A stretch of 64,000 bases of DNA from assembly GCA_017465745.1 (NCBI GenBank), contig JAFTVM010000103.1, positions 1-64,000 on the forward strand, read 5' to 3'. Below are positions 1 to 61,265 of the stretch, in pieces. The position numbers and the translations under genes are program-made. Position 1 is the first letter of the stretch. Every line of letters begins with the position of its first letter. Below the pieces are notes generated by a model. The model worked only from the letters and a program-made list of their open reading frames with translations, was not told the DNA's origin and ran no database searches. The DNA comes from Oscillospiraceae bacterium (GTDB lineage: Bacteria > Bacillota > Clostridia > Oscillospirales > Oscillospiraceae).

Positions 1-180
1 CAGATCATAGTGGGCGTAGCTGGGGATGGCGTAGGGATCGGACAGGTACAGGGGGTTCAGGATCAGAATGTAGGCCAGGGCGATGTAGGTAGTCAGACCG
101 GCCAGCAGTTCTGTCTTGACGCTGGAGCCTCTCTCGGTGTAACCGAAGAAGCGGTCCAGAGCATTCTGGGGCTTGGACAT
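1..180 (-). CDS. NCS2-family purine permease, AzgA/GhxP-like (partial, N-terminus only)
   Basis: Reading on the minus strand from an ATG at 180 gives 60 residues that run off the window. They start MSKPQNALDRFFGYTERGSS and continue into a first membrane segment (TTYIALAYILILNP). A short cytoplasmic start followed by a TTYIxxAYI-x-NP segment is typical of AzgA-type adenine/guanine/hypoxanthine permeases. An AAGGAG site lies just upstream. The gene follows the permease at 286-1623 on the same strand with about 100 bases between and no clear terminator, so the two are probably co-transcribed. Exact substrate cannot be read from this fragment; the purine catabolic context favours hypoxanthine, adenine or guanine. 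Confidence 0.8.
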   Translation of the reverse strand, partial: MSKPQNALDRFFGYTERGSSVKTELLAGLTTYIALAYILILNPLYLSDPYAIPSYAHYDL

Positions 181-285
181 AAGAATTTCTCCTTTTTAAT
201 TTATTTGCAATCGCGCTGTCACCGGGATACGAAAAGGTTTCCAAAAGTTATCCCGATATGCGCGGTTTTGCTGTGGGACGGGGAA

Positions 286-1623
286 TTACTCCTCGTGGAT
301 GCCCATGTTCTTGGGCAGGACCAGATCCAGCACGATGGCGACGACGAAGATAACGGCAACGACGTTGGCAGAGAACACATCGCGGACCATCTGGGGGAAG
401 ATGTTCCAGATGCCAACCTCGGAAGCGGCAGTGGTGCCGACGCCGATGGCCAGGGACAGGGAGGCAATGGTGTTGTTTCTGTGGTTGAAGCCGGCGCGGG
501 ACAGCATCTCGAAGCCAGCGACGCAGATGTTGCCGAACATCATGACGGTGCAGCCGCCCAGGACGCAGTCAGGCAGGGATGCGAAGAAGTTGGCAATGGG
601 GGGCAGCAGGCCGCACAGGACCATGATGACAGCGCCGGTCATGATGGTGAAGCGGTTGACAACCTTGGTCATGGCGATCAGGCCAACGTTCTGAGAGAAG
701 GAAGTGACGGGAGGCGTGGAGAACAGGGAGGAGATGAAGGAGCCGAAGCCGTCGATGGCCAGGGAGCCGGAGATCTCCTTCTCGGTGATGTCGCGGTTCA
801 GACCGCCGTTGCACAGGGCGGTGGTATCGCCGATGGTCTCAGCTGCGGAAACCAGGTAGATCAGCACGACGGAGATGATGGCGTTGATGTTGAACTCGGG
901 AGCAACGGGCATCAGGTGGGGCAGGGAGAAGAAGCCGTCAGCCATGATGGCAGACAGATCGACCTTGCCGAAGAAGAAGGAAATGACATAGCCGACGATC
1001 ATGCCGACCAGAACGGAGATCTGCTTCAGGTAGCCCTTTGCCAGAGCGTTCCATGCCAGGCAGGTAGCCAGGGTGATGGTGGCGATCAGCAGGTTCTGCC
1101 AGGAGCCGAAGTCATCGTTGTAGCCGCCGCCGAAGGAACGGATACCGACGGTGAACAGGGACAGGCCGATGCCGGTGACGACGCAGCCGGCGACGATGGG
1201 GGTGATGACCTTACGCCAGTATTTGGCCAGCAGGCCAAGGATACCTTCCACAATACCGCCCACCATGACGGCGCCGACTACGGTACCATAGCCATAGGTT
1301 GCTGCCACGGAGGACAGAACAGCAACGAAGGTGAAGCTGACGCCCATAACGACGGGCAGGCCGGAACCGATCTTCCAGATGGGGTACAGCTGGATGAAAG
1401 TGGCGATACCGGCGGCGATCATGGCATTCTGCAGCAGAACAGCCAGAGTGGCACCATCCAGGCCGGCAGCTGCGGCAATGATGGTAATGGGGGACAGGTT
1501 GGCAACAAACATTGCCAGAATGTGCTGCAGACCGAAGGGAATCGCCTTGCCCAGGGGGACTCTGCCCTCAAGGGTAAAGACATTCTCCACGGAAGCAGCC
1601 TGCTTGGGAGCAGTGTTCTTCAT
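286..1623 (-). CDS. NCS2/NAT-family uracil-xanthine permease, likely xanthine or urate uptake
   Basis: A 445-residue polytopic inner-membrane protein, the usual length for nucleobase-ascorbate transporters. The NAT signature is visible around residues 305-320 as SFSQNVGLIAMTK (Q-N-x-G-x4-T), and the paired acidic region AAETIGDTTALCNGG lies in the middle of the protein. The family couples purine or pyrimidine uptake to protons. It is divergent from xdhABC and upstream of a second purine permease, so xanthine, urate or a related oxopurine is the best guess (inference). The start is preceded by AAGGAGATT and the gene has its own consensus promoter. Confidence 0.88.
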   Translation of the reverse strand: MKNTAPKQAASVENVFTLEGRVPLGKAIPFGLQHILAMFVANLSPITIIAAAAGLDGATLAVLLQNAMIAAGIATFIQLYPIWKIGSGLPVVMGVSFTFVAVLSSVAATYGYGTVVGAVMVGGIVEGILGLLAKYWRKVITPIVAGCVVTGIGLSLFTVGIRSFGGGYNDDFGSWQNLLIATITLATCLAWNALAKGYLKQISVLVGMIVGYVISFFFGKVDLSAIMADGFFSLPHLMPVAPEFNINAIISVVLIYLVSAAETIGDTTALCNGGLNRDITEKEISGSLAIDGFGSFISSLFSTPPVTSFSQNVGLIAMTKVVNRFTIMTGAVIMVLCGLLPPIANFFASLPDCVLGGCTVMMFGNICVAGFEMLSRAGFNHRNNTIASLSLAIGVGTTAASEVGIWNIFPQMVRDVFSANVVAVIFVVAIVLDLVLPKNMGIHEE

Positions 1624-1723
1624 GTTGAATCTCCTTTATAATATAGTATTTGTAACCGCGCTTTTCCGGGTGCATGAAAGGGACTCTGAAAGCTGCCCCC
1701 AGTACACGCAATTATACGGGTAC

Positions 1724-2046: not shown

Positions 2047-4341
2047 ATGAACAAGTACACCGGCAAAAGCGCCATCCGCGTGGATGCCTATGACAAGGCT
2101 ACCGGCCGCGCCAAGTACGTGGACGACCTGCGTCCCCTGGACGCTCTGGTCATGAAGATCTACCATTCCAAGATCACCCACGGCTTTGTCAAGTCCATCG
2201 ACACCTCCGCCGCTGAGGCTGTCCCCGGCGTCGTCAAGGTTCTGACCTGCTTCGACGTCCCCGACATCCAGTTCCCCACCTCCGGCCACCCCTGGTCCAC
2301 CGACCCCCATCATCAGGACGTCGCTGACCGGAAGCTCCTGAACCAGCACGTCCGTTACTACGGCGACGATGTTGCCATCGTCATCGCAGAGAACGAGGTC
2401 GCAGCCGCCCAGGGCGTCAAGCTGATCAAGGCCGAATACGAGGAGCTGCCCTTCGTTCTGGATCCCCAGAAGACCCTGGAGCCCGATGCTCCCCAGATCC
2501 ACGAAGAGTGCCCCGGCAACCTGCTGGCCAAGTCTGAGACCCACATCGGTAACTACGAAGAGGCCATCAAGGAGCCCGGTCTGATCAAGATCGAAGGCTG
2601 GTACAATACCCCCACCGTTCAGCACTGCCACATCGAGAACCACGGCGTTTACGCCTACACCGAGAACGGCCGCATCGTGGTCGTTTCCTCCACCCAGATC
2701 CCCCACATCGTCCGCCGTATCACCGGCCAGGCTCTGGGCTGCCCCTGGGGCAAGGTCCGCGTCATCAAGCCCTACATCGGCGGCGGCTTCGGCAACAAGC
2801 AGGACGCGCTGTATGAGCCCCTGGTCGCTTGGGCTACTACCCAGGTGGGCGGTCGTCTGGTCCATTACGAGTGCGCCCGTGAAGAGACCTTCGTCTCCAA
2901 CCGCGTCCGTCACTCCATCCGCACCCACCTGATCTCCTGGGTCCGCGAGGACGGCACCCTGGTCGCCCGTAAGGGTGAGCAGTGGTCCAACGGCGGCGCC
3001 TACGCTTCCCACGGCCACTCCATCGTCGCCAAGGGCGCAGGCTCCATCCCCCAGCTCTACCCCGTTCCCAACTACGAGGGCGTTGCCTACTCCGTCTACA
3101 CCAACCGTCCCACCGCAGGCGCCATGCGCGGCTACGGCATGCCTCAGACTACCTTCGCAGTGGAGTCCCACACCGACGACATCTGCAAGAAGCTGGGTCT
3201 GGATCCCATTGACTACCGCCGCAAGACGCTGATGCCCAAGGGCTATGTTGACAGCTTCTCCAAGAACGAGATGTTCGAGGATACCTTCAACCAGTGCCTG
3301 GACAAGGGTATCGAGATCATGGACTACTACACCAAGTACAACGAGTACAAGAACCAGACCGGCCCCATCCGCAAGGGTATCGGCGTGTCTGCCTTCTGGT
3401 ACAACACCGCTGTCTGGCCCATCTCCCTGGAGTCCTGCTCCGTCCGCATGATCGTCAACCAGGATGGCTCCGTCCAGTTCCAGACCGGCGAGACCGAAAT
3501 CGGCCAGGGCTGTGACACCGCCTACTCCCAGATGGTGGCCGACGCTGTCGGTATCCCCCTGAAGGACGTCCATGTGGTCTCCTGCCAGGACACCGACGTG
3601 ACGCCCTACGGCACCGGCGCTTATGCTTCCCGTCAGACCTACATCGGCGCTCTGGGCATCTCCAAGTGCGCCACCGAGCTGCGCAAGAAGATCCTGCAGA
3701 TCGCCCATGACCAGACCCGTATGCCCATCGAGACCCTGGACCTGGTGGACGGCAACATCATCCGCACCACCGACGGCCGTGTCCTGAAGACCCTGGGCGA
3801 CCTGGCCTGCGAGAGCCTGTACTCCCTGGAGGACAGCCACCACATCACCGCAGAGACCACCTGCCAGATCAAGTCCAACGCCTACTCCTTCGGCGTCTGC
3901 TTTGCCGAAGTCGAGGTCGACATCCCCATGTGCAAGGCCAAGCTGACCCGCATCCTGAACGTTCACGACTGCGGCCGCCTGATCAACCCCGCCCTGGCTG
4001 AAGCCCAGGTCCACGGCGGTATGTCCATGGGCATCGGCTACGCACTGAGCGAGCAGCTGATCTTCGACGAGAAGACCGGCAAGCCTCTGAACAACAACCT
4101 GCTGGACTACAAGCTGTCCACCTTCATGGATCATCCCACCCTGGAAGTTGCCTTCGTCGAAAACTTCGAGCCCACCAACCCCTTCGGCACCAAGGCTCTG
4201 GGCGAGCCCCCCGCCTGCCCCGTTGCTTCCGCTGTGCGTAACGCTATCCGCAACGCCACCGATGTTTCCATCAATGTCTGCCCCATCAACCCCCATGTCC
4301 TGTACAAGGAGTTCACTGAGGCCGGACTGATCGAAGAGTAA
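2047..4341 (+). CDS. xdhA: Xanthine dehydrogenase-type molybdenum hydroxylase, molybdopterin-binding subunit
   Basis: A 764-residue large subunit of the xanthine oxidase family. The start at 2047 (MNKYTGKSAIRVDAYDKATG) follows a strong AGGAAGGAGA site; the frame is open further upstream but without a plausible start. Recognisable parts are the a/b hammerhead fold in the first 150 residues, the cofactor loop IGGGFGNKQ, AGAMRGYGMPQ, the GETEIGQGCDT loop and the C-terminal KALGEPP, which carries the catalytic glutamate of hydroxylases. It forms a trimeric enzyme with the next two genes. Purine permeases and guanine deaminase alongside suggest xanthine, hypoxanthine or purine as substrate. A labile selenium ligand on molybdenum is plausible because the maturation genes are in the window, but sequence alone cannot show it. 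Confidence 0.88.
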   Translation: MNKYTGKSAIRVDAYDKATGRAKYVDDLRPLDALVMKIYHSKITHGFVKSIDTSAAEAVPGVVKVLTCFDVPDIQFPTSGHPWSTDPHHQDVADRKLLNQHVRYYGDDVAIVIAENEVAAAQGVKLIKAEYEELPFVLDPQKTLEPDAPQIHEECPGNLLAKSETHIGNYEEAIKEPGLIKIEGWYNTPTVQHCHIENHGVYAYTENGRIVVVSSTQIPHIVRRITGQALGCPWGKVRVIKPYIGGGFGNKQDALYEPLVAWATTQVGGRLVHYECAREETFVSNRVRHSIRTHLISWVREDGTLVARKGEQWSNGGAYASHGHSIVAKGAGSIPQLYPVPNYEGVAYSVYTNRPTAGAMRGYGMPQTTFAVESHTDDICKKLGLDPIDYRRKTLMPKGYVDSFSKNEMFEDTFNQCLDKGIEIMDYYTKYNEYKNQTGPIRKGIGVSAFWYNTAVWPISLESCSVRMIVNQDGSVQFQTGETEIGQGCDTAYSQMVADAVGIPLKDVHVVSCQDTDVTPYGTGAYASRQTYIGALGISKCATELRKKILQIAHDQTRMPIETLDLVDGNIIRTTDGRVLKTLGDLACESLYSLEDSHHITAETTCQIKSNAYSFGVCFAEVEVDIPMCKAKLTRILNVHDCGRLINPALAEAQVHGGMSMGIGYALSEQLIFDEKTGKPLNNNLLDYKLSTFMDHPTLEVAFVENFEPTNPFGTKALGEPPACPVASAVRNAIRNATDVSINVCPINPHVLYKEFTEAGLIEE

Positions 4342-4355: not shown

Positions 4356-5237
4356 ATGTATGATATTAATGTTCTGTACCAGGCCAAGACGGTGGACGAA
4401 GCCATCGCCCTGCACCTGGAGCATCCCGAAGCTGACATCGTTGCCGGCGGCACCGACGTTCTGGTTCAGATGCACGAAGGCAAGCGCGCCGGCCGCTCCC
4501 TGCTGAGCATCCACGGCCTGGACGAGATCCGGGGCGTCAAGATGGAAGAGGACGGCACTCTGCGCATCGGTTCCCTGACCACCTTCTCCCACATTACCAA
4601 CGATCCTCTGATCCAGAAGTACATCAACGTTCTGGGCGAGGCTGTTGATACCATCGGCGGTCCCCAGATCCGAAACGCCGGCACCATCGGCGGCAACACC
4701 TGCAACGGTGCCACCTCCGCCGACTCCACCGCCACCCTGCACGCATGGGACGCCATCGTGGAACTGAAGGGTCCCAACGGCTACCGCCGTCTGCCCATCA
4801 GCGACTTCTACATCTGGGCCGGCCAGGTGGACCTGCAGCCCGGTGAGATCCAGACCGGCATCCTGATCCCCAAGGAGAGCTACGAGAACTGCTACGGCCA
4901 CTACATCAAGTACGCCATGCGTGAGGCCCTGGATATCGCTACCCTGGGCACCTCCGTCAACGTCCGCCTGTCCGCCGACAAGAAGACCGTCGAGCGCGTC
5001 CGTATCGCCTACGGCGTCGCTGGTCCCACCCCCCTGCGTGCCAAGAGCGCTGAGGCTGTGGGCAACGGCCAGCCCCTGTCCATGGAGCTGATCGAGAAAG
5101 TTGCAGCCGCTGTCGTGACTGACCTGAAGTGCCGTGACTCCTGGCGTGCTTCCAAGGCATTCCGTACTCACATGGCTGTGGAGTGCTGCAAGCGTGCCTT
5201 CATCGAATCCGTTAAGCTTGCTGGAGGTGAACTGTAA
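4356..5237 (+). CDS. xdhB: Xanthine dehydrogenase-type FAD-binding subunit
   Basis: A 293-residue medium subunit (CO dehydrogenase flavoprotein/XdhB family). The FAD-binding loops AGGTDVLVQMHEGK near residue 30 and GTIGGNTCNGATSAD near residue 110 are clear. The C-terminal domain contains the AYGVAGPTPLRA segment typical of the family. It would take electrons from the 2Fe-2S subunit and pass them to NAD or another acceptor. It sits 14 bases after xdhA behind an AAGGAG site. Its TAA overlaps the next start as TAATG, so it is translationally coupled to xdhC. Confidence 0.9.
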   Translation: MYDINVLYQAKTVDEAIALHLEHPEADIVAGGTDVLVQMHEGKRAGRSLLSIHGLDEIRGVKMEEDGTLRIGSLTTFSHITNDPLIQKYINVLGEAVDTIGGPQIRNAGTIGGNTCNGATSADSTATLHAWDAIVELKGPNGYRRLPISDFYIWAGQVDLQPGEIQTGILIPKESYENCYGHYIKYAMREALDIATLGTSVNVRLSADKKTVERVRIAYGVAGPTPLRAKSAEAVGNGQPLSMELIEKVAAAVVTDLKCRDSWRASKAFRTHMAVECCKRAFIESVKLAGGEL

Positions 5238-5761
5238 TGGAAAAGCATCAGATTCAGTATCAGACCGTCCACTTCAAGCTGAACGGTAAGGATGTCGAGA
5301 AGACTGTGGACGTCCGCGCTTCCCTGACCGACATGCTGCGCAACGACTTCAAGATGCACTCCGTCAAGAAGGGCTGCGAAGTCGGCGAATGCGGCGCCTG
5401 CAACGTCCTGATCGACGACGAGGCTGTCAACTCCTGCCTGTGCCTGGCTGTCTGGGCTGAGGGCAAGCACATCCGCACCCTGGAAGGCCTGCTGGGCCCC
5501 AACGGTGAGCTGCACGCCATCCAGGAAGCTTTCATCGAGGAAGCCGCCATCCAGTGTGGTTTCTGCACTCCCGGCTTCATCATGACCGCTGTCGAAATCA
5601 TCGAGTCCGGCAAGGAGTACACCGACGCCGAACTGCGCAAGCTGCTGTCCGGCCACCTGTGCCGCTGCACCGGCTACGAGAATATCCTGCGTGCCGTCAA
5701 GAAGGCCATCAAGCGCGTTATGTACCAGAACCTGGGCAAGGAAGTCCCCGCTGAGCAGTAA
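5237..5761 (+). CDS. xdhC: Xanthine dehydrogenase-type [2Fe-2S] subunit
   Basis: A 174-residue small subunit with both clusters of the family. The plant-type ferredoxin cluster has Cys47, Cys52, Cys55 and Cys67 (GCEVGECGAC...C). The second, helical cluster has Cys107, Cys110, Cys142 and Cys144 (QCGFC...LCRCTG). It relays electrons from molybdenum to the FAD subunit. Its ATG overlaps the xdhB stop, and an intrinsic terminator follows. The order Mo subunit-FAD-FeS matches E. coli xdhABC. Confidence 0.92.
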   Translation: MEKHQIQYQTVHFKLNGKDVEKTVDVRASLTDMLRNDFKMHSVKKGCEVGECGACNVLIDDEAVNSCLCLAVWAEGKHIRTLEGLLGPNGELHAIQEAFIEEAAIQCGFCTPGFIMTAVEIIESGKEYTDAELRKLLSGHLCRCTGYENILRAVKKAIKRVMYQNLGKEVPAEQ

Positions 5762-5905: not shown

Positions 5906-6050
5906 GTACAAATATGTCGGAAACACAGCGAAACTTCCGGCAGCTACACCCCCGCAACCTTGTAATTAACGGCCCGCCGAATCGGCCCGCCGCGAGTATC
6001 CAAGTCAAAATTGGATGCTCTTTTTCATGCAATCGTTCCAAACTTGAAAG
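5906..6050 (+). promoter_or_regulatory. Structured guaD leader, candidate riboswitch or attenuator of unassigned class
   Basis: The leader contains a hairpin CGGAA/TTCCG (5918-5938), a C-rich stretch, two near-repeats of CGGCCCGCCG (5970-5992) and finally a terminator hairpin directly before the guaD ribosome site. This layout, an aptamer-like region followed by a terminator inside a long leader, is that of transcriptional riboswitches. The region does not show the conserved core of the guanine/adenine class. An AGCTACACCC string resembles part of preQ1-I aptamers, but the matching stem is missing. Ligand and class are unknown; a purine or a downstream metabolite is a reasonable guess. Confidence 0.55.
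5994..6026 (+). terminator. Terminator hairpin in the guaD leader
   Basis: GAGTATCCAA (5994-6003) pairs with TTGGATGCTC (6011-6020), ten pairs with one U-G, around a 7-base loop. TTTTTC follows. It lies 39 bases before the guaD ATG, so transcription of guaD requires read-through. Confidence 0.8.
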
Positions 6051-6064
6051 GAGCCACAGAAACT

Positions 6065-7330
6065 ATGAAAGTGACCATTCTCCACGGCAACATCGTCTCC
6101 GCTCCCGAACTGGGCAAGCTGGACATCACCGAAAACGGCTACCTGGTAGCTGAAGACGGCATCATCGTGGGCGTCTACGAGACCCTGCCCGAAAAGTACG
6201 CCGGCTGCGAAGTCGAAGACTACGGCGACAAACTGGTCTTCCAGACCTTCTCCGACATGCATCTGCATGCTCCCCAGTACGCCATGCTGGGCATGGGTAT
6301 GGATATGCCCCTGATCGACTGGCTGAACACCTACACCTTCCCCACCGAGGCTCACTTCGCTGACACCGAGATGGCACGGAAGATCTACAAGCAGCTGGCT
6401 CATGAGCTGATTGCCAACGGCACCACCCGTGTTGTCATGTTCTCCTCCCTGCACCGCGAATCCACTCTGATCCTGATGGAAGAGCTGGAGAAGGCCGGTG
6501 TCACCGGTTACGTCGGTAAGGTCAACATGGACCGCAACGGCGGCGAGAACTACCAGGAGACCACCGAGGAATCCATGGAAGAGACCATCAAGTGGCTGGA
6601 GCAGTGCAACTTCGAGCACATCAAGCCCATCATCACCCCCAGATTCACCCCCACCTGCACCAACGAGCTGATGGCTTTCCTGGGCAAGCTGGCTAAGGAG
6701 AAGAACCTCCCCATCCAGTCCCACCTGTCCGAAAACACCGGCGAGCTGGCCTGGGTCGCTGAGCTGCATCCCGAGTGCAAGCAGTACTGGGAGACCTACG
6801 ACATCTACGATCTGTGGAACGACAAGACCGTCATGGCTCACTGCGTCTGGTCCGATGAGCGCGAGCGCAAGGCTATCAAGGACGCCGGCGTGTGGATCGC
6901 TCACTGCGGCGACTCCAACCTGAACCTGATCTCCGGCTACATGCCCGTTCGCGAGATGCTGAACGAGGGTCTGCGCGTTACCCTGGGCTCCGACATCGCT
7001 GGCGGCGACCGTCTGTCCATGTTCGCTGTCACCGCTTCCACCATCCGCGGCTCCAAGGCCCGCCGGATCATGGATAACTGGCAGTCCGAGTTCCTGTCCG
7101 TTCCCGAGGGCTACTACCTGGGCACCTCCGCTGCCGCTGAGTTCTTCGGCGAGAAGCCCGGCTTCGCAGCAGGCAACCCCCTGCACGCCATCGTCCTGAC
7201 CGACGACAAGCTGCCCGCAGTCCGCGAACTGACCGTTCAGGAGCGTTTCGAACGCTGCATCTACCGCCGTCAGCCCGACGCCGTTCAGGTCGTCTGGTCC
7301 GCCGGCCGCAAGGTCTACACCGCTGAGTAA
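6065..7330 (+). CDS. guaD: Guanine deaminase
   Basis: A 421-residue amidohydrolase converting guanine to xanthine and ammonia in the cytoplasm, feeding the xanthine dehydrogenase. Family landmarks are SDMHLHAPQY with the metal-binding HxH followed by the PQY typical of guanine deaminase, LIDWLNTYTFPTEAHF, HLSEN, AHCVW and GSDIAGGDRLSM, which holds the metal-binding aspartate. The ATG at 6065 is chosen because AAAGGAG lies upstream; an in-frame TTG at 6011 falls inside the terminator stem. The gene has its own promoter and a perfect terminator, so it is monocistronic. Confidence 0.93.
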   Translation: MKVTILHGNIVSAPELGKLDITENGYLVAEDGIIVGVYETLPEKYAGCEVEDYGDKLVFQTFSDMHLHAPQYAMLGMGMDMPLIDWLNTYTFPTEAHFADTEMARKIYKQLAHELIANGTTRVVMFSSLHRESTLILMEELEKAGVTGYVGKVNMDRNGGENYQETTEESMEETIKWLEQCNFEHIKPIITPRFTPTCTNELMAFLGKLAKEKNLPIQSHLSENTGELAWVAELHPECKQYWETYDIYDLWNDKTVMAHCVWSDERERKAIKDAGVWIAHCGDSNLNLISGYMPVREMLNEGLRVTLGSDIAGGDRLSMFAVTASTIRGSKARRIMDNWQSEFLSVPEGYYLGTSAAAEFFGEKPGFAAGNPLHAIVLTDDKLPAVRELTVQERFERCIYRRQPDAVQVVWSAGRKVYTAE

Positions 7331-10938: not shown

Positions 10939-11847
10939 TTATTCCTTGGGGCCGTTGGCGTAATACCGGGTGAGAAATTCCATGAACTCCTTGACGATGC
11001 CCCGGTCCGCCTGGTCCCGGCGGCAGGTGACATACAGGTCACGGGTGTCTGCCCGGTGGGGCAGCTCGAAGGCCAGGATCCGCTTCTCCCGCAGGAAATT
11101 GTTGGCCGCCCGCTTGGAGATGATGGATACGCCCAGGCCCCCCGCCACCAGATTCTTGATGGCCTCGGGATCGTTGACACGGGCGGTGACCTGAAGCTGC
11201 TCGTCGGCGATCCCCGCCTGTTCCAGAAAGAAATCGGCGCTCTTTTTGGTGCCGCTGCCCTTCTCCCGCAGGATCACCGGGGACTGCCGCAGGATCTCCA
11301 CCGCAGAAGCACCGGCGGCCTGGAGGTTCAGGTATTCCTCCGTCACCGGGGTGATCAGCACCATCCGGTCCTTGCAGAAGGGCATACAGACGACACTCTC
11401 CTTTTCACTGGGCATACCGATCAGACCCACATCGTAGATACCGTCTCCCAGCCCGTCCACCACGCCCTTGGAATCGGACTGGTGGATGACGAAGAAGGCG
11501 TTGGGGTTGAGCTTGCCGAACCGGGGCAGGACCTCCGGCAGGATATAGGCCGAGGGAATGGTAGAGGCGCCCAGGTGGATGATCTGCCGGCCCGCGGAGG
11601 AGCATTCGTTGACCATGCGGTCCCGGAGTTCCAGGATGTTGACGGAGTAGTCGTAGAGCTTCATGCCCTCGGTGGTGACTTCGATATTCTTGGTGGTGCG
11701 CATGATGAGCCGGGTGCCCAGCTCCTCCTCCAGCGCCCGGATGTGGGTGGAGATGGTGGGCTGGGAGATATACAGGCTCTCGGCGGCCTTGGTGAAGCTG
11801 TTGAGCCGCACCACAGCGGCAAAAGATTCCAGCTGCTTAAATTCCAT
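10939..11847 (-). CDS. LysR-family transcriptional regulator linked to selenium metabolism
   Basis: A 302-residue LysR regulator. The winged helix-turn-helix occupies residues 1-60 ([36 protein letters not shown]) and is followed by the periplasmic-binding-like effector domain ([22 protein letters not shown]). Its start lies 11 bases inside the end of the cysteine desulfurase gene, so both are translated from one message. It faces the YedE-SelD operon across a divergent promoter region, a usual place for a LysR regulator of both units. LysR proteins of this kind are recurrently found next to selD, yedE and desulfurase genes. The effector is unknown. Confidence 0.85.
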
Positions 11848-13000
11848 GGCAGATTTCCTCCAGTGCGTTCAGGGCAGCGTCCACGTCAGCTTCGGTGTTG
11901 AACCAGCCGAAGGAGAAGCGGATCGTACCCGTGGGATAGGTATTCAGTGTCTGATGGGCGGAGGGAGCGCAGTGAAGACCCACGCGCGTCATAATCCCGT
12001 AGGTGGCGTCCAGCTCAAAGGCCGCCTGGGAAAGTTCCCTGTTCAGGGTCTGGATGCTGACCACGCCGGTGCGGTTTGCCGTATCCCGGCGGCCGACGAT
12101 ACGAATGTGCCCCTCCCCTTCCAGTCTTTCAAGACCGGAAAGGAACCGGGCTGTCAGTTCCAGCTCGTGATTTCTGATATTTTCAATGCCCGTTTCCTTC
12201 AGCCAGCTCAGGCCAGCGTGGAGACCCATGATGCCGGGCAGGTTCATGGTGCCCGGCTCAAAGCGGTCGGGCATGAAGGCGGGGATCTGCTCTGTGTGGC
12301 TGATGGAACCGGTACCCCCGGACAGCAGCGGGTCAGTCAGGGGGATCATCTCCTCCTTTAAGATAAAGCCGCCGATGCCCTGTGGGCCCAGCAGGCCCTT
12401 GTGGCCGGTGAAGGCAAGGGCATCGATGTGCATTTTTTCCATGTCGATGTCAAAAACGCCGGCGGTCTGGGCGCAGTCGACGATCAATTTCAGCCCGTGG
12501 GCATGGCAGAAGCCCCCCACTTCTTCAATGGGCAGCACGGTGCCGCAGACATTGCTGGCATGCATCATGGCAACGGCCTTCGTGTTGGGGCGCAGCAGGC
12601 TTTCCATGGTGTCCAGGCGCAGATTTCCCTGATCGTCACAGGGGATCCGGTCAAAGGATACACCGGCTGCCTCCAGCTGGCGGATGGGGCGCATCATGGC
12701 ATTGTGCTCCATGGCGGACACCAGAACATGGTCGCCGGGACGCAGGAAGCCCTTGAGGATCACGTTCAGACTCTCGGTGACATTCTTGGTGAACACCACA
12801 TTCTTGCAGTCGCCGCCGTGAAACAGATCCGTCAGCATCTGCCGGGTCTCAAAAACCAGCTCCTCCACATCGTAGGCACTGTCGTAGCAGCCCCGGTTGA
12901 TGTTGGCGCCCTGGGTGGTCATATATTGGTAGACAGCCCCGGCCACCACTTCCGGCTTGGGGAACGTGGTGCTGGCATTGTCCAGGTAGATCTTATCCAT
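11837..13000 (-). CDS. PLP-dependent cysteine desulfurase / selenocysteine lyase-like (class V aminotransferase fold)
   Basis: A 387-residue enzyme starting [16 protein letters not shown], the classic NifS/CsdA start. The PLP lysine is in [12 protein letters not shown] near residue 200, and the catalytic cysteine lies in the C-terminal loop [13 protein letters not shown]. It belongs to the group of desulfurases (EF2568-like) found with orphan selD genes and probably releases selenium or sulfur from cysteine analogues for SelD or for hydroxylase maturation (inference). First gene of the operon with the LysR regulator; divergent from yedE. Confidence 0.88.
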
Positions 13001-13241: not shown

Positions 13242-14348
13242 ATGAAGAAAAACGAAAAGATGGGTATCGCCCTTGCGGGTCTGGCCATCGGCGTCATCGC
13301 CGTGCTGCTGGTCCTCTTCGGCAACCCCGCCAACATGGGCTACTGCATCGCCTGCTTCCTGCGTGACACCGCCGGCGGTCTGAAGCTCCACTCCGCTGCC
13401 GTCGTGCAGTATGTCCGTCCTGAGATCATCGGTCTGGTTCTGGGTAGCTTCATCATGGCACTGCTCAAGAAGGAATGGGCCCCCAAGGGCGGCTCCGCCC
13501 CCTTCACCCGCTTCATCCTGGGCTTCTTCGTCATGATCGGCTGCCTGGCATTCCTGGGCTGCCCCTTCCGCATGACCCTGCGCCTGGCCGGCGGTGACCT
13601 GAACGCCGTGGTCGGTCTGCTGGGCTTCGTCGCCGGTATCCTGTGCGGCGTGTTCTTCCTGAACAAGGGCTACTCCCTGAAGCGTACCTACAAGCAGCCC
13701 AAGCTGGAGGGTGCTGTGGCTCCCGCCATCCAGGTGGTCCTGCTGGTGGTCCTGGTTGCTCTTCCCACCCTGCTGGTCTTCTCCGAGTCCGGCCCCGGCT
13801 CCAAGCACGCTCCCATCATCATCTCCCTGGCTGCCGGTCTGATCGTCGGCGCCCTGGCACAGCGTACCCGTATGTGCATGGTCGGCGGTATCCGTGACGT
13901 AGTCCTGTTCAAAGAGACCAAGCTGTTGAGCGGCTTCGTGGCCCTGTTCGTCGCTGCTCTGGCTGCAAATCTGATCCTGAACGCCGTCAAGGGCGGTGGT
14001 TACTTCAATCCGGGCTTCGAATCCCAGCCCGTCGCCCACACTGCCCACATCTGGAACTTCCTGGGCATGCTGCTGGTGGGCTACGGCTGCACCCTGTTGG
14101 GCGGCTGCCCCCTGCGTCAGCTGATCCTGGCCGGCGAGGGCAACACCGACTCCGCCATCACCGTCACCGGTCTGGTTGTCGGTGCCGCTTTCTGCCACAA
14201 CTTCGGTCTGGCCGGCGCTGCTGACTCCGTCGTCGACGGCGTCTATAAGGTCGGCGGCCCCGGCATCAACGGCCAGGTCATGGTCGTAGTCGGCATCATC
14301 GTGGTCACCATCATCGCCTGTGTCAACACCTTCGGCAAGAAGGATTAA
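13242..14348 (+). CDS. yedE: YedE-family putative selenium transporter
   Basis: A 368-residue membrane protein with about ten hydrophobic segments, of the YedE/YeeE (TsuA-like) family. The paired cysteine motifs are visible: GCPFRMTLR near residue 105, the RTRMCMVGGIRD segment near residue 210, and GGCPLRQLILAGEG in the last third. Related proteins carry thiosulfate. The subfamily found with selD and the next two genes is regarded as a selenium or selenium-compound importer. It is the first gene of a tight operon (spacing 16 bases to the TusA-like gene). Confidence 0.87.
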   Translation: MKKNEKMGIALAGLAIGVIAVLLVLFGNPANMGYCIACFLRDTAGGLKLHSAAVVQYVRPEIIGLVLGSFIMALLKKEWAPKGGSAPFTRFILGFFVMIGCLAFLGCPFRMTLRLAGGDLNAVVGLLGFVAGILCGVFFLNKGYSLKRTYKQPKLEGAVAPAIQVVLLVVLVALPTLLVFSESGPGSKHAPIIISLAAGLIVGALAQRTRMCMVGGIRDVVLFKETKLLSGFVALFVAALAANLILNAVKGGGYFNPGFESQPVAHTAHIWNFLGMLLVGYGCTLLGGCPLRQLILAGEGNTDSAITVTGLVVGAAFCHNFGLAGAADSVVDGVYKVGGPGINGQVMVVVGIIVVTIIACVNTFGKKD

Positions 14349-14364: not shown

Positions 14365-14565
14365 ATGCTGGACGCAAGAGGTCTTTCCTGTCCCGAACCC
14401 GTCGTCATGATCCGCAAGGCCATGATGACCAAGGACGCTGAGTACACCATCGTGGTGGACAATCCCACCGCCAAGGAGAACGTTACCCGTTACGCTGAGC
14501 ATCAGGGCTACACCGTCACCGTCACTGAGGCAAACGACGAGTACACCCTGACCATCACCAAGTAA
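14365..14565 (+). CDS. TusA/YedF-like sulfur- or selenium-carrier protein
   Basis: A 66-residue SirA/TusA/YedF fold protein starting MLDARGLSCPEPVVMIRKAM. The CPxP motif carries the cysteine (residue 9) that accepts a persulfide or perselenide in TusA relatives. It lacks the extra C-terminal domain of full-length YedF. The AAGGAG site is 9 bases before the ATG. The stop overlaps the next start as TAATG. The position between a YedE transporter and SelD suggests it hands selenium from transporter or desulfurase to later steps (inference). Confidence 0.88.
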   Translation: MLDARGLSCPEPVVMIRKAMMTKDAEYTIVVDNPTAKENVTRYAEHQGYTVTVTEANDEYTLTITK

Positions 14566-14813
14566 TGACGACGTTTATCGCCACCTTCTTCTCCCATTTT
14601 GGTGCCATCCGTTTCAAGAAGCTCTGCCAAAAGGCAGGCTGGGCCGCCCAGGTCATGCCGGTCCCCCGGGATCTGAGCAGCAGCTGCGGCACCTGTGTCC
14701 GCTATGAGGGCACGGATATTTGCCCCGACGCAAGAATGCCCGAGGAAGTGGAGCAGATCGTGGAAGTATCTGACAACGGCTATATCTGCCGCCATCGGGC
14801 AGCAGACAGCTGA
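14565..14813 (+). CDS. DUF3343 small protein, putative Se/S carrier
   Basis: An 82-residue protein of the DUF3343 (Se/S carrier-like) family. It starts TTFIATFFSHFGAIRFKKLC and carries conserved Cys near residues 41 and 44 (SSSCGTCVRYEG), the family signature. These proteins are repeatedly encoded with TusA-like and SelD proteins and are thought to carry the sulfur or selenium atom. Translation is coupled to the previous gene through a TAATG overlap. A terminator-like hairpin follows, before selD. Confidence 0.82.
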   Translation: MTTFIATFFSHFGAIRFKKLCQKAGWAAQVMPVPRDLSSSCGTCVRYEGTDICPDARMPEEVEQIVEVSDNGYICRHRAADS

Positions 14814-14880: not shown

Positions 14881-15918
14881 ATGGAAACCGAAGTAAAGAT
14901 GACAAAACTGGCCCAGTGTGCCGGCTGCGGCGCCAAGGTGGGCGCGGGCACCCTGGCCAAGATGCTGGAGGGCTTCAAGACCCACACCGATCCCCGGCTG
15001 ATCGTGGGCTATGATAAATCCGACGACGCCAGCGTCTACTACCTGGACGAAAACACCGCTCTAGTGCAGACCACCGACTTCTTCCCCCCCATCGTCGACG
15101 ACCCTTACCTCTACGGTCAGATCGCCGCCACCAACGCCATCTCTGATATCTACGCCATGGGCGGCGAGCCCAAGCTGGCGCTGAACATCATGTGCGTCTC
15201 CGACAAGATGGGCAAGAAGGCCATCCAGGAAGTTCTGCGCGGCGGCTATGACAAGGCCTACGAAGCTGGCCTGATCATCACCGGCGGCCACACCATCAAC
15301 GGTGCCGAGCCCATTTACGGTCTGGCCGTTTCCGGCTTCGTGCATCCGGACAAGGTGCTGACCAACTCCGGCGCCAAGCCCGGCGACGTGCTGATCCTGA
15401 CCAAGCCCCTGGGTGTCGGCATCCTGACCACCTCCGCCAAGGCGGACATGGTGGAGAAGGAAGTGATGGACCGCATCTACGCTCAGATGGCCACCCTGAA
15501 CAAGGCCGCCCGGGACATCATGGTCAAATACGAGGTCCACTCCTGCACCGACGTCACCGGCTTCTCCCTGATGGGTCACGGCTACGAGATGGCCCAGGGC
15601 AGCGAAGCCACCCTGCACATCAAGTGCGCCGACGTCCCCTACCATCCCGAGGCTTACGAGCTGGCGGAGATGGGCTTCATCCCCGCCGGCGCCTACCGCA
15701 ACCGGGACTTCTGCGAGAAGGGCGTCAAGAATGTGGCCGGCGTGCCCCGCGCCCTGGAGGATATCTTCTTCGATCCCCAGACCAGCGGCGGCCTGCTCTT
15801 CGCCATCCCCGCCGGGCAGGCAGACGCATGCATGGCTGAACTGAAGAAAGCCGTCCCCGCCGCCCGCGTCATCGGCTACGTCACCGAGCAGCTGGATGCA
15901 GGCATCTATCTCGAATAA
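14881..15918 (+). CDS. selD: Selenide, water dikinase (selenophosphate synthase)
   Basis: A 345-residue SelD that makes selenophosphate from selenide and ATP. The N-terminal glycine-rich loop LAQCAGCGAKVG has Cys16 and Lys19 at the catalytic Cys/Sec and Lys positions, so cysteine is used, not selenocysteine. DKSDDASVY, TTDFFPPIVDDPY, GGHTINGAEPIYG and the C-terminal PQTSGGLLFAI are typical. The ATG at 14881 follows AAGGAG. No selA, selB or tRNA-Sec is in the window. The gene lies near yqeB, yqeC and two molybdenum hydroxylases. It therefore fits the known orphan SelD pattern, in which selenophosphate serves selenium-dependent molybdenum hydroxylases. Confidence 0.93.
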   Translation: METEVKMTKLAQCAGCGAKVGAGTLAKMLEGFKTHTDPRLIVGYDKSDDASVYYLDENTALVQTTDFFPPIVDDPYLYGQIAATNAISDIYAMGGEPKLALNIMCVSDKMGKKAIQEVLRGGYDKAYEAGLIITGGHTINGAEPIYGLAVSGFVHPDKVLTNSGAKPGDVLILTKPLGVGILTTSAKADMVEKEVMDRIYAQMATLNKAARDIMVKYEVHSCTDVTGFSLMGHGYEMAQGSEATLHIKCADVPYHPEAYELAEMGFIPAGAYRNRDFCEKGVKNVAGVPRALEDIFFDPQTSGGLLFAIPAGQADACMAELKKAVPAARVIGYVTEQLDAGIYLE

Positions 15919-16961: not shown

Positions 16962-18548
16962 TTACAGCACCTGTCCGCCAAAGTGGTCGGTATACACGCC
17001 GTTCTCCAGGGCGGGCTTGCCCATGACGAAGACCATATCCATGCCCGCAGCAAACTGTGCAGGATCCGTCCAGGTTCCGGTCTGGTGGATGTTCTTTAGA
17101 TCAAACAGGCACAGGTCGGCATCCGCGCCCACCTCGATTTTACCCTTGCTGCGCAGACCGAACCGCCAGGCGGGCAGGCCGGTGATCTTATGGACCGCTT
17201 CCTCAATGGTCAGCAGGCCCCGCTCCCGGACGTAGTGCTCCAGCAGCCGGGGGATATTGCCATAGACCCGGGGGTGCATCAGGCCGTCCTCGGGATAGGT
17301 GGCGTCGGAAATGACGGAGGAATAGGGTTCCTTCAAAATGGCGTCGATGTCGTTGTCGTGGGTGATCCGGTCGATCATAGCGGGGGTGCAGTGCTCGGAA
17401 GCCAGCAGGTCAAAAAGGGCATCGTAGACGTCCTTGCCCTGGGCCTGGGCGATCTGCACGATGCTCATGCCCTCGAAGGCCTTGTTCTCCGGCAGACGCA
17501 GGGAGGTGGCCTGGATATTCTCAAAGCCCACCAGCAGGGAGATGTTCTCGAAATCGCTGCCGGTCTTCATGCGCTGTTTCATAATTTCCCGCTTCTCGGG
17601 ATCCAGCAGGGCAGCCGTCAGGGCGTCCATACCGCCGGCCTGGAACTCGGGGGGCAGTACGTGGATCAGCTGGGTGGAGCCGGCGGGATAGGGATAGACG
17701 TCGCAGGTGATGTCCACACCCTCGGCCCGGGCAGCGCGGAGCATCTCCAGCATCTTCGGCACGCTCTTTTCCCAGTTGCGGGTGCCGATGGCTTTCAGGT
17801 GACTGATCTGCATGGGGGTATTCAGAGCCTTGGCCACAGAAATCATCTCCGCCAGGGCCTCCACCACCTCGTCGCCCTCCTGGCGCATGTGGACGGTGAT
17901 AACGGTACCGGAATTTTTCAGGGGTTCCAGCGAACGGATCAGGCCTTCCGTGTCATAGAAGCACTCCGGCGCGTAGCCCAGACCCAGGGACACACCCAGA
18001 GCGCCCTGGGAAAGGCCCTCCTCCAGCAGCGCCCAGATGAATTGATATTCGTCGTCTGTCAGCCTGCCGTCCTTGAAACCGGCGGCGCAGCCCCGCAGGG
18101 TTCCCATGCCCACCTGCATACCGTTGTGGATGCGCTGAGGCACCCGGGACAGCTGCTCCTTGTACTCCGTCAGTGTGGAGAAATCGCAGCCTTCCGGCAT
18201 ATCGCCCACCACGGGAGCCAGATAATCCAGGATCTCCTGGCGGTGGGGGCCGCGGACAGGGATCATGGACAGGCCGCAGTTGCCGTTGATGACGGTGGTC
18301 AGGCCCTGGGCCAGCTCCGCCTTGCCGTAGCCGGCCCGGAAAGCCGCCGCCTCGCCGTGGCGGTGGACATCGATGAAGCCCGGAGTCAGGTAACGCCCGG
18401 CAGCATCCACAGTATGTACCGCTTCACAGTCCGCCAGACTGCCCACAGCGGCGATCCTTCCATTTTCCACAGCCACGTCGGCGGTAAAGGCCATTTTGCC
18501 GCTGCCGTCCACCACCCGGGCATTCCGGATCAGATAATCATACATCAT
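16962..18548 (-). CDS. N-acyl-D-amino-acid deacylase (D-aminoacylase)-like amidohydrolase
   Basis: A 528-residue amidohydrolase. The N-terminal b-sandwich and metal-binding strand PGFIDVHRHGEAAA (HxH near residue 60) are followed by TTVINGNCGLSMIPV, the NGNCG motif with the metal-binding cysteine of D-aminoacylases. The later HxxQEGDEVVEAL, QISHLKAIG and SDATYPEDGLMHPR motifs also match. In typical members the sequence is HTHDD; here it is HRHGE, so specificity may differ. It would release a D-amino acid from an N-acyl or related derivative. The start is one of two adjacent ATGs (18548 or 18545) behind AGGAGG. It has its own promoter; the hydroxyacid dehydrogenase follows. Confidence 0.82.
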   Translation of the reverse strand: MMYDYLIRNARVVDGSGKMAFTADVAVENGRIAAVGSLADCEAVHTVDAAGRYLTPGFIDVHRHGEAAAFRAGYGKAELAQGLTTVINGNCGLSMIPVRGPHRQEILDYLAPVVGDMPEGCDFSTLTEYKEQLSRVPQRIHNGMQVGMGTLRGCAAGFKDGRLTDDEYQFIWALLEEGLSQGALGVSLGLGYAPECFYDTEGLIRSLEPLKNSGTVITVHMRQEGDEVVEALAEMISVAKALNTPMQISHLKAIGTRNWEKSVPKMLEMLRAARAEGVDITCDVYPYPAGSTQLIHVLPPEFQAGGMDALTAALLDPEKREIMKQRMKTGSDFENISLLVGFENIQATSLRLPENKAFEGMSIVQIAQAQGKDVYDALFDLLASEHCTPAMIDRITHDNDIDAILKEPYSSVISDATYPEDGLMHPRVYGNIPRLLEHYVRERGLLTIEEAVHKITGLPAWRFGLRSKGKIEVGADADLCLFDLKNIHQTGTWTDPAQFAAGMDMVFVMGKPALENGVYTDHFGGQVL

Positions 18549-18906: not shown

Positions 18907-19554
18907 TTACTTGTCCTTGTCGCCCTTGCTCTCGTCGATGTAGCTGTAGAGGGTGTACTTGGAAATGCCGTAGAAATTGCACACCCGCTGACCGGCCTTG
19001 GTGATCAGGAAGGCGCCGCTCTCGTTGAGGAAGCGGATGGCCTTGACCTTGTCCTCCTTGGTCATCAGCGCCACGGGCTTGCCTACCAGCTGGGCACTCT
19101 GCTTGATCAGTTCATCCAGCAGGTCGTTGACATTGTGGGTGATGGTCTGGGGCTCTGCCGCGGCTTCATCGGTGGCGGTGAAGGCGTGGATGGTATCCTC
19201 CATCAGCTTCATCATGGTGATGTCGTAGTTGATGGCGAAGATGCCTGTCACCTGGTCATTTTCATCACGGATGAAAATGGTGGTGGACTTGAGGATCTTG
19301 CCGTCCTCGGTGCGGGTCAGATAGGCCAGCCGGTCCTGCAGCCTGGCGGGATCCGCCTTCAGCGCCTCCCACACCACGTGGGAAGGACCGTCGCCCAGAC
19401 GGCGGCCGGTGACATGGCCGTTCTCGATGACCACCACGGAATGCTCCGGATCTTCGACACGCAGGTCATGGACGACCACCTCGCAGTTGGAACCGAACTG
19501 ACGGGCAATGCCCCGGGCCAGCTGCTTGCACAGCTGAATTTCATAGGATTTCAT
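18907..19554 (-). CDS. YheO/DauR-type transcriptional regulator (PAS-like plus HTH)
   Basis: A 215-residue DNA-binding protein with the YheO-like PAS domain in residues 10-120 (FGSNCEVVVHDLRVEDPEHSVVVIENGHVTGR and KSTTIFIRDENDQVTGIFAINYDIT). A C-terminal helix-turn-helix follows (RFLNESGAFLITKAGQRVCNFYGISKYTLYSYI). Proteins of this family regulate amino-acid or purine-related catabolic genes in several bacteria. It stands between the amidohydrolase and the ssnA-led urate island, transcribed away from the island, and is the best local candidate for its regulator (inference). Own promoter at 19590-19617. Confidence 0.85.
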   Translation of the reverse strand: MKSYEIQLCKQLARGIARQFGSNCEVVVHDLRVEDPEHSVVVIENGHVTGRRLGDGPSHVVWEALKADPARLQDRLAYLTRTEDGKILKSTTIFIRDENDQVTGIFAINYDITMMKLMEDTIHAFTATDEAAAEPQTITHNVNDLLDELIKQSAQLVGKPVALMTKEDKVKAIRFLNESGAFLITKAGQRVCNFYGISKYTLYSYIDESKGDKDK

Positions 19555-34516: not shown

Positions 34517-34712
34517 ATCCAAACGGCAACCTCTGAAAATGCTTTTTTGATGGACTGGGCGAGAGATTTTCTTCCAGATAAAGATGCGGAAATTCCGGAA
34601 TCCTTTGTGTATTGCGGGATTTTCGCAGCGCATAGCTGGGAGTAAAGCTCCGCACAGGACGCAAAAGGGGCGTTTTCAGCGGTGCCAGAATTAATAAAGG
34701 AGATTGATTCCA
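34517..34712 (+). other. Long A+T-rich ridA leader
   Basis: The region between promoter and ridA contains CAGAG/CTCTG and GCGGAAATTCCGGAATCC-type dyads, but no clear terminator and no recognised aptamer. A 31-codon frame at 34550-34645 has no ribosome site and is not called. Confidence 0.4.
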
Positions 34713-52659: not shown

Positions 52660-52664
52660 AACGC

Positions 52665-56092: not shown

Positions 56093-56099
56093 CTTTTTA

Positions 56100-57527: not shown

Positions 57528-57528
57528 A

Positions 57529-58194: not shown

Positions 58195-58206
58195 AACGGC
58201 ACCTCC

Positions 58207-60638: not shown

Positions 60639-60640
60639 AC

Positions 60641-60675
60641 AAAAACGGAGCAGCCGGTCGGTTGCTCCGTTTTTT
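60641..60675. terminator. Bidirectional terminator between the DUF1846 and MocA-like genes
   Basis: AACGGAGCA and TGCTCCGTT flank a CCG/CGG inner stem and end in a run of T residues. It is flanked by A residues on the other side. Confidence 0.88.
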
Positions 60676-61265
60676 CATATCTGCTTCAGAAGGGCTTCCA
60701 GGATCTCGGGGGTGTCCACATCGATGAGTTCCCGCTCGCTGGATACTTCTACGGTACGGACCCAATCGGGGTGCTTCTTCACCACCGCGCCGCCGCCCTT
60801 TCCCACGGGCAGGCGCAGCAGTTCTTCGAAAGTGGACTCAGGGAACAGGACAGGATTGCCCACCGTCCCCCGCCAGGCCAGCCGCCAGATATTCTCCGGA
60901 GCGCCATCAAAGGCATGGCACAGCTTCTCAACGCTCCCCACCGTCAGGCAGGGCTGGTCGGAAGCGGCGAACATGCAGCCCGTCATGCGGGGGCAATTTT
61001 CCAGCAGGTATTCCACGCCCAGCCGGACGGTGTCGCTCTGCTCCGGCAGTGCATGGAGCAGAACGGGGATGTTCCGTTCGTCGCAGATCTTCCTGATTTC
61101 CGGATGCCGGGTCACCACCACCCGGGCCGCCAGGGGGGCTTTCTCCATCGTTTCCAGAATCCGCGTAATGATGGGTGCGCCGTGGAATTCTTGCAGTAAT
61201 TTATTGCTGCCGAACCGCCGGGCCAGGCCGGAGGCCATGATAACGCAGCCGATCTTCTGTTGCAT
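60675..61265 (-). CDS. MocA/YgfJ-type molybdenum hydroxylase accessory nucleotidyltransferase
   Basis: A 196-residue NTP-transferase. The N-terminal nucleotide-binding motif is CVIMASGLARRFGSNKLL, and FAASDQPCLT near residue 97 holds the metal-binding Asp. It resembles MocA, which makes molybdopterin cytosine dinucleotide, and its homologue YgfJ. Xanthine dehydrogenase-type hydroxylases of bacteria often carry that dinucleotide, so it would supply XdhA and XdhD. In E. coli the gene stands next to yqeC; here it is about 19 kb away from yqeBC. The start at 61265 follows GGGGGAG. Confidence 0.82.
   Translation of the reverse strand: MQQKIGCVIMASGLARRFGSNKLLQEFHGAPIITRILETMEKAPLAARVVVTRHPEIRKICDERNIPVLLHALPEQSDTVRLGVEYLLENCPRMTGCMFAASDQPCLTVGSVEKLCHAFDGAPENIWRLAWRGTVGNPVLFPESTFEELLRLPVGKGGGAVVKKHPDWVRTVEVSSERELIDVDTPEILEALLKQI

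Follow-up and report, generated by a model that had tools for sequence, protein, structure and literature searches.

A reductive route from urate to pyruvate has been reconstituted with enzymes of Escherichia coli and Clostridioides difficile: XdhD-YgfM converts urate to yanthine, YgfK with SsnA converts yanthine to ureidomethyl-hydantoin, HyuA forms 2,3-diureidopropionate, YgeW or UacY forms albizziin, and YgeY with YgeX forms pyruvate (PMC12507026). Which of the two ureido groups is cleaved first is disputed (PMC12990295). In E. coli K-12 the genes lie in the region xdhABC-ygeWXY-hyuA-yqeABC-mocA-ygfK-ssnA-ygfM-xdhD (PMC12507026; locus L106 of this study). The uricolytic cluster of C. difficile has an XdhD homologue without YgfM, and a D-aminoacylase homologue; reduced ferredoxin has been proposed as the electron donor of its XdhD and of UacX (PMC12507026). 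Enterococcus faecalis has, in one run of locus tags (EF_2563-EF_2582), yqeB, yqeC, a SirA-like gene, selD, a selenocysteine lyase, ygfJ and a permease (PMC2276186, Table 1), together with EF_2570 (the best match of xdhA and xdhC), carbamate kinase, ygeW, ygeY, ygeX, hyuA, ygfK and ssnA, and is listed without a selenocysteine or selenouridine system (PMC2276186). The locus described here, which resembles all three, belongs to Oscillospiraceae bacterium GCA_017465745.1 and occupies the first 64,000 of the 71,727 bases of contig C89 (JAFTVM010000103.1); this whole stretch is referred to as the window.

The window probably (at a rough probability of 0.8) encodes a reductive, anaerobic pathway for urate and the means of delivering selenium to the molybdenum hydroxylases of that pathway. 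This reading draws on gene families, on operon-like gene order, on the lack of markers for selenocysteine and selenouridine in the metagenome-assembled genome (MAG; 2.73 Mb, 122 contigs, 95.5% complete, 7.1% contaminated) and on the pairing of a ferredoxin with a molybdenum hydroxylase, XdhAC, across relatives; the chemical steps are taken from the published biochemistry of homologues. The pathway genes and the ferredoxin are:

19895..21238, plus strand: ssnA, aminohydrolase (TIGR03314, 536 bits, cut-off 455.5)
21394..24387, plus strand: ygfK, reductase (TIGR03315, 1300 bits, cut-off 835)
24470..27049, plus strand: XdhAC-type fused 2Fe-2S and Mo hydroxylase (TIGR03311, 1169.9 bits, cut-off 830, positions 1-848 of 848)
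27066..27560, plus strand: RnfB-like ferredoxin, 4x[4Fe-4S], suggested to exchange electrons with XdhAC (four CxxCxxCxxxC motifs, 164 aa)
28019..29167, plus strand: ygeX, diaminopropionate ammonia-lyase (TIGR03528, 605.5 bits, cut-off 532; frame open from 27848, with 28019 taken as the start)
29219..30631, plus strand: ygeY, M20 hydrolase (NF009555, 602 bits, cut-off 321)
30745..31944, plus strand: ygeW, knotted carbamoyltransferase (TIGR03316, 778 bits, cut-off 500)
32082..32990, plus strand: carbamate kinase (TIGR00746, 361.5 bits, cut-off 358; 65% identical to E. coli YqeA)
33111..34460, plus strand: hyuA, hydantoinase (TIGR02033, 494 bits, cut-off 393; 36% identical to E. coli HyuA)
34704..35093, plus strand: ridA, Rid-family enamine/imine deaminase (TIGR00004, 175 bits, cut-off 106)

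Each published step of the pathway has a homologue or counterpart in the window, which holds the marker enzyme SsnA, YgfK (to which UacX is the alternative), HyuA, YgeW (to which UacY is the alternative), YgeY and YgeX. By homology, an FAD-less XdhAC would reduce urate to 2,8-dioxopurine (yanthine), YgfK and SsnA would reduce and then open yanthine, HyuA would give 2,3-diureidopropionate, YgeW and carbamate kinase would take off one ureido group and make ATP, YgeY would take off the other, and YgeX, perhaps with the help of RidA, would release pyruvate and ammonia. RidA would do so by clearing the aminoacrylate that YgeX makes. The window YgeY is 470 aa long versus 403 aa in E. coli, and a 468-aa open frame is also present in L143; a tRNA-Asn call by ARAGORN at 23361-23452, antisense within ygfK, is probably false.

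The original prediction, made from the sequence alone, had described a near-complete counterpart of the E. coli purine/selenium region joined to selenium supply genes, degrading urate or related purines to pyruvate, ammonia and carbamoyl phosphate. Nearly all of the genes that it named are borne out by NCBIfam and Pfam, and for most of them the score exceeds the curated cut-off: xdhABC, ssnA, ygfK, ygeX, ygeY, ygeW, carbamate kinase, hyuA, ridA, yqeB, yqeC, yedE, the TusA-like gene, the DUF3343 gene and selD are over cut-off, whereas guaD, the mocA/ygfJ-like gene and the SclA-like desulfurase match the named families at scores below the family cut-offs. Chance is no issue at the family-model scores obtained. 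The predicted products are well supported by homology to biochemically established enzymes (PMC12507026, PMC12990295). The likeness to E. coli K-12 holds for the pathway enzymes, which are the same (window versus E. coli identities of 64% for YgeW, 65% for YqeA, 57% for YgeY, 49% for YgeX, 43% for YgfK, 36% for HyuA and 31% for SsnA), but the window falls short of a near-complete counterpart: it has XdhAC and a ferredoxin in place of XdhD-YgfM, a YheO-type regulator in place of YgeV, and selD next door. E. coli YgfM and YgeV have no tblastn match in the window at E 1e-3, and there is no XdhD or separate YgfS or YgfT, the latter two matching only the ferredoxin and YgfK by tblastn. Compared with the C. 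difficile cluster as described (PMC12507026), the window has YgfK rather than UacX and keeps YgeW and carbamate kinase.

Relatives were taken as the best 80 loci by YgfK out of at least 570 confirmed, with flanks of at most 10 kb, and all counts out of 80, 67 or 61 below rest on them. Among these, the closest YgfK proteins (94-95% identical) are those of two deer-gut Oscillospiraceae MAGs, L009 and L010. The order D-aminoacylase, ssnA, ygfK, XdhAC, ferredoxin, ygeX, ygeY recurs in L009, L010 and L011, and L010 keeps the longer order yedE, tusA, DUF3343, selD, D-aminoacylase, regulator, ssnA, ygfK, XdhAC, ferredoxin, ygeX, ygeY.

The gene at 24470..27049 had been read as xdhD. It is a molybdenum hydroxylase of the XdhAC type (TIGR03311) and not of the E. 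coli XdhD family: TIGR03313 scores 214.7 against a cut-off of 1101.9, and identity to E. coli XdhD is 25.5% (29% to XdhA). The column of E. coli XdhD Glu606 is a gap in the window protein and in every other aligned XdhAC row. No FAD subunit lies beside it, E. coli YgfM being without a tblastn match in the window at the E-value given above. The name XdhAC is used here because the A and C subunits of other systems are joined; a C. sporogenes protein also called XdhAC is reported to form yanthine from urate when given an artificial donor, and a commentary of 2025 lists the electron donor of the XdhAC-type first enzyme among the open questions (PMC12990295). The same genome encodes a second XdhAC (C50:89148-91706; loci L140 and L159), 49% identical to the first and adjoining a LysR-family gene.

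The ferredoxin gene, which starts 16 bp after XdhAC, was missing from the gene list of the original prediction. The best solved relatives of its product are RnfB subunits (E 2e-27), of which it covers only residues 113-263 (7zc6_B). With 19 of the 80 loci left out for want of an XdhAC match above 850 bits, 61 loci remained (L022, L037 and L038, which end less than 0.8 kb from XdhAC, were kept). A ferredoxin with two to four motifs is found in 40 of the 61, as recognised by motif inside the stretch from ssnA to XdhAC plus 0.8 kb, and no other open reading frame (ORF) of at most 420 aa with at least two CxxCxxCxxxC motifs occurs in the 1.29 Mb of these loci (window-family ORFs left out). By homology to the window protein and within 700 bp of XdhAC, a ferredoxin is present in 34 of the 61 and a flavin subunit in none, whereas E. 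coli-type XdhD is accompanied by a YgfM-like flavin subunit in six of six loci and by a ferredoxin in none. These six loci, which are close relatives and whose families were model-checked in L051 only, also hold XdhAC; flavin-subunit and ferredoxin partners thus each stay with their own enzyme even where one locus has both. Members of the window clade (L009-L012) have the ferredoxin gene downstream of XdhAC, and where it occurs in other loci it lies 5' of XdhAC; its linkage changed at least eight times on an XdhAC tree of 72 rows, 42 of them with the gene (counted with a wider ferredoxin list plus L141 and the window, leaving out L022, L038, L085, L143 and L152, and with absence in L142, L144-L151, L153, L158 and L159 scored by homology alone).

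This pattern suggests that the adjacent 4x[4Fe-4S] ferredoxin would probably hand electrons to XdhAC for urate reduction. The broader proposal, to which slightly less than even confidence may be given, is that gut anaerobes have two interchangeable urate-reducer designs, XdhD with an NADH-fed flavin subunit and XdhAC with a dedicated RnfB-like ferredoxin, the window ferredoxin being the physiological donor. A cluster-encoded ferredoxin is not named as donor in PMC12990295 or in the portions consulted of PMC12507026 and PMC12771579, and the C. sporogenes study in Nature Microbiology (PMC12666987) may state it.

Several observations weigh against the urate pathway and against the part given in it to XdhAC and the ferredoxin. 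The genome is a MAG, 95.5% complete and 7% contaminated, and the locus counts are not independent, because many loci are close kin and were picked as the best 80 of at least 570 by YgfK. The fused type has as its named relative E. faecalis EF2570, which is called a selenium-dependent xanthine dehydrogenase (PMC11448449). In L142, XdhAC is neighboured by xdhABC and selenium genes, and ssnA, ygfK and ygeWXY are missing from the 18 kb around it, the L142 genome having ssnA elsewhere. XdhAC could therefore be a selenium-dependent xanthine or purine hydroxylase that works oxidatively with the ferredoxin as acceptor, urate being reduced by another enzyme or not at all; the family model TIGR03311 bears the name selenium-dependent xanthine dehydrogenase, the window protein is without the equivalent of Glu606, and the second XdhAC lies elsewhere in the genome. 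Such an oxidative role is nevertheless unlikely, considering that the window already has a complete XdhABC of its own for xanthine oxidation, that the XdhAC gene stands between ygfK and ygeX, that urate reduction to yanthine, driven by an artificial donor, is reported for the C. sporogenes protein named XdhAC (PMC12990295), and that E. coli XdhD matches only XdhA, XdhC and XdhAC in the window by tblastn. We infer that the window XdhAC reduces urate.

As to its electron partner, 21 of the 61 XdhAC loci are without such a gene in the cluster, so that the ferredoxin is not obligatory; in L087 a gene for an FAD subunit stands some 2.4 kb away from XdhAC; and ferredoxin distances follow YgfK more closely than XdhAC (partial correlation 0.63 versus 0.14, n=41), a result by which tighter co-divergence of the ferredoxin with XdhAC than with YgfK is rejected. 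Both the loci without the gene and the weak co-divergence would fit a general carrier that neighbours XdhAC by happenstance while a housekeeping ferredoxin does the work, a somewhat doubtful possibility but one to be taken seriously. It fits less well with the lack of any other multi-motif ORF of that size in the 61 loci, with a pairing that is seen for XdhAC but not for XdhD-type enzymes, and with the occurrence of the gene on either side of XdhAC. A dedicated ferredoxin acting as donor to XdhAC is the part of the reading that deserves an experiment; the window cluster is otherwise mostly a fresh example of a known system.

XdhAC may have a history that differs from that of its neighbours. 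Loci L013-L088 (Flavonifractor, Intestinimonas, Olsenella and others) share ssnA-ygfK-XdhAC with the window, many of them also ygeX-ygeY-ygeW-arcC and most of them a divergent YheO-type regulator, and their YgfK is 61-70% identical to that of the window, but their XdhAC is only 53-57% identical and of another branch, and their ferredoxin, if present, is 5' of XdhAC. In the Flavonifractor and Intestinimonas loci, identities to the window are 64-70% for YgfK, 73-77% for SsnA, 84-85% for YgeY and 85-88% for YgeW, but only 54-55% for XdhAC. A quick XdhAC tree, from which L154-L157 were left out, joins the window clade (L009-L012, L141, L142) to L144-L147, L149, L150, L148, L151, L143, L153, L152 and the second copy of the same genome in a mixed group that comprises 19 rows, has a support of 92 and is drawn open; the other 57 XdhAC proteins form a separate group, except the distant L158. 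Within the mixed group, L144-L147, L149 and L150 (also L148 and L151) are clusters with a short YgfK-like ORF from another family of the order, and the XdhAC of L153 comes from a YgfK cluster. A fair reading of these sequence comparisons is that XdhAC may have been swapped during the history of the cluster.

The short ORF of L144 (L144:5836-7458, 541 aa) is without the pyridine-nucleotide domain that the window YgfK has. UacX was considered for L144 and its kin and rejected, as the ORF has no PF01180 match at E 0.001 and only a weak 4Fe-4S match below cut-off; it stays a short YgfK-like protein. The XdhAC of that cluster has no flavin-subunit match nearby, and both reductases may depend on ferredoxin. 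Two genomes of the same genus as the window (G111 and G268) have no XdhAC at E 1e-100 and no SsnA over cut-off, and the cluster therefore looks like an accessory trait in the genus. A blastn search of ygfK against E. coli genomes gave no match.

The selenium genes of the window lie on both sides of the pathway genes:

10939..11847, minus strand: selenium-associated LysR regulator (NF040786, 300.7 bits, cut-off 250)
11837..13000, minus strand: SclA/EF2568-type selenocysteine lyase or cysteine desulfurase (TIGR01977, 451.5 bits, cut-off 377; SclA model 428, below 525)
13242..14348, plus strand: yedE, putative selenium transporter (TIGR04112, 510 bits, cut-off 200)
14365..14565, plus strand: TusA/SirA-like protein (PF01206, 70 bits, cut-off 28.6; open frame from 14320)
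14565..14813, plus strand: DUF3343 protein, putative selenium/sulfur carrier (PF11823, 52 bits, cut-off 25)
14881..15918, plus strand: selD, selenophosphate synthase, Cys form (CAGCGAK; TIGR00476, 395 bits, cut-off 125)
40020..40826, minus strand: yqeB, selenium-molybdenum cofactor maturation (TIGR03309, 339 bits, cut-off 220)
40853..41614, minus strand: yqeC, selenium-molybdenum cofactor maturation (TIGR03172, 195 bits, cut-off 73)
60675..61250, minus strand: mocA/ygfJ-like nucleotidyltransferase (PF12804; TIGR03310, 125.6 bits, below cut-off 186; open frame to 61427)

The TusA-like protein matches only the N-terminal part of YedF, below the YedF cut-off. The SclA-like lyase, YedE, the TusA-like protein, the DUF3343 protein and SelD would supply selenophosphate, while selenium insertion and cytidylation of the cofactor would fall to YqeB, YqeC and the MocA-like protein. 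In the MAG, selD and yqeB are present, whereas selA has no match and the other markers are not found over cut-off: the best selB match scores 105.7 bits (cut-off 242), the best selenouridine synthase (ybbB) match 23 bits (cut-off 220), and all nine tRNA-Sec candidates fall under the gathering score of 47, the best (46.1) being a tRNA-Ser. Eight of the nine are typed as tRNA-Ser, -Leu, -Tyr or -Arg. The absence of selenocysteine markers is strong but not final, as the MAG is 95.5% complete and the ninth candidate (C69, 29.9 bits) is untyped. Such an orphan SelD has been tied to selenium-dependent molybdenum hydroxylases by Haft and Self (PMC2276186), and because selA, selB, tRNA-Sec and the selenouridine synthase are not found over cut-off, SelD most likely serves enzymes of that class here, as judged from gene content. 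The orphan SelD fits a selenium link to the urate pathway, and selD and yqeB mutants of C. difficile grow poorly on xanthine and urate (PMC11448449). The predicted joining of the pathway to selenium genes is confirmed for the window, but E. faecalis EF_2563-EF_2582 already provided a case of it. Relative to that locus, the gene order differs, and the window adds a separate xdhABC, guaD, yedE, the DUF3343 gene, the selenium-associated LysR gene, the ferredoxin at the side of XdhAC and the D-aminoacylase (as compared with the published table; some of these may occur in E. faecalis; PMC2276186).

Between selD and ssnA lie three genes, of which the following two are kept in relatives:

16962..18548, minus strand: D-aminoacylase family amidohydrolase, outside the UacY-like clade (solved D-aminoacylases, E 2e-75)
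18907..19554, minus strand: YheO-type PAS and HTH regulator, divergent from ssnA (PF08348, PF13309)

The third encodes a hydroxyacid dehydrogenase (15958-16905), which, like the D-aminoacylase, had been offered as a possible extra step of the pathway. The dehydrogenase is rejected as such, having no tblastn match at E 1e-10 in any of the 80 loci; in L010 only about 490 bp separate selD from the D-aminoacylase. The D-aminoacylase gene stands next to the regulator in L009, L010 and L011 (3 of the 80 loci), as in the window, but its product falls outside the UacY-like clade. At E <=1e-60, D-aminoacylase matches occur in 26 of 391 genomes of the class, that of the window included, and 28 stretches cover all 30 matches outside it. 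Seven of these adjoin urate genes (four with ssnA, three with ygeX and a ygeY-like gene only) and form one clade (100/100) without the window protein, a joint clade being rejected (p-AU 0.006); they carry the motif Q-D-G versus N-C-G in the window. The seven were recognised by neighbourhood, and C. difficile UacY is known here by description; if the seven are UacY, as their place suggests, their exclusion of the window protein means that it is not UacY. A single stretch of L224 has a D-aminoacylase of the urate-linked clade alongside ygeW, selD, yqeB, yqeC and a carbamate kinase gene.

The window D-aminoacylase may tentatively be viewed, with rather less than even confidence, as an independently recruited second 2-ureido hydrolase beside YgeW, comparable to UacY in C. 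difficile. It adjoins the regulator of the cluster in the window and in L009, L010 and L011, it keeps the motifs common to solved D-aminoacylases, UacY is itself a D-aminoacylase homologue (PMC12507026), and L224 offers a case of a urate-linked D-aminoacylase together with ygeW and carbamate kinase. Its place outside the clade of the seven (by the p-AU given above), its N-C-G motif in place of Q-D-G, the intact YgeW and carbamate kinase of the window and its presence in only 3 of the 80 loci argue against that role.

The YheO-type gene is the likeliest regulator of the urate cluster. Like the window, 48 of 67 usable loci have such a gene no more than 3 kb from ssnA and in divergent orientation to it; loci were usable if they had an ssnA match above 450 bits and at least 1.5 kb upstream of it (six of the 80 had less upstream and seven had no such ssnA), and L033 (overlapping open frames), L077 (gene upstream on the same strand) and loci with the regulator elsewhere were counted as misses. 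A literature search for a link between this type of regulator and urate brought up no mention of YheO among the papers listed.

Purine uptake and oxidation are encoded at the start of the window:

1..180, minus strand: GhxQ-like fragment of a second permease, truncated at the contig start (52 aa align with E. coli GhxQ at 50% identity)
286..1623, minus strand: NCS2 purine permease, PbuX/XanQ-like (NCS2, 303 bits, cut-off 292; PbuX, 402 bits, below 414)
2062..4341, plus strand: xdhA, Mo subunit (NF043082, 1172 bits, cut-off 780; open frame from 1795, homology from about 2062)
4356..5237, plus strand: xdhB, FAD subunit (NF043083, 412 bits, cut-off 310)
5237..5761, plus strand: xdhC, 2Fe-2S subunit (NF043084, 247 bits, cut-off 217)
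6011..7330, plus strand: guaD, guanine deaminase-like amidohydrolase (TIGR02967, 309.5 bits, below cut-off 375)

GuaD would deaminate guanine, and XdhABC would hydroxylate xanthine or hypoxanthine to give urate. One of the two purine permeases predicted is complete (33% identical to XanQ and 29% to UacT, both of which match this same single permease by tblastn), but the other is only a 59-aa piece at the contig start, with no Pfam match.

Next to yqeC, a pyr run (41879-47619) encodes dihydroorotase, pyrK, pyrD, pyrF, pyrE, pyrB and pyrI; urate-derived carbamoyl phosphate as the sole source for these genes is ruled out, carB being present at C81. The region 52216-59007 has, all on one strand, genes for an M20 peptidase, a DUF5058 protein, aconitase X with its swivel subunit encoded separately, and a flavoenzyme akin to BaiCD and bilirubin reductase; no link to urate is seen in them. 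A 54-base repeat (47692-47745 and 52127-52180, 91% identical) contains TTGTTTGTCGGAA, of which a weaker copy with two mismatches lies upstream of ssnA at 19631; its three matches versus 0.89 expected, a number reached in 7 of 100 shuffles, are not clearly over chance. An Rfam scan of the window gave no family at gathering score.

The genome is another example of a SelD carrier apparently without selenocysteine. Almost all carriers of the selenium-associated LysR regulator have been reported to decode selenocysteine (PMC5322559); its presence in a genome apparently without that machinery suggests that the regulator is not confined to selenocysteine-making bacteria. About 30% of human uric acid leaves via the gut, where it is open to bacterial consumption (PMC12507026). 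The neighbourhood pattern of XdhAC provides a concrete candidate for the electron donor, checkable by one in vitro assay. If the ferredoxin has this role, urate reduction would be tied to the reduced-ferredoxin pool of an organism whose genome has two RnfC genes over cut-off.

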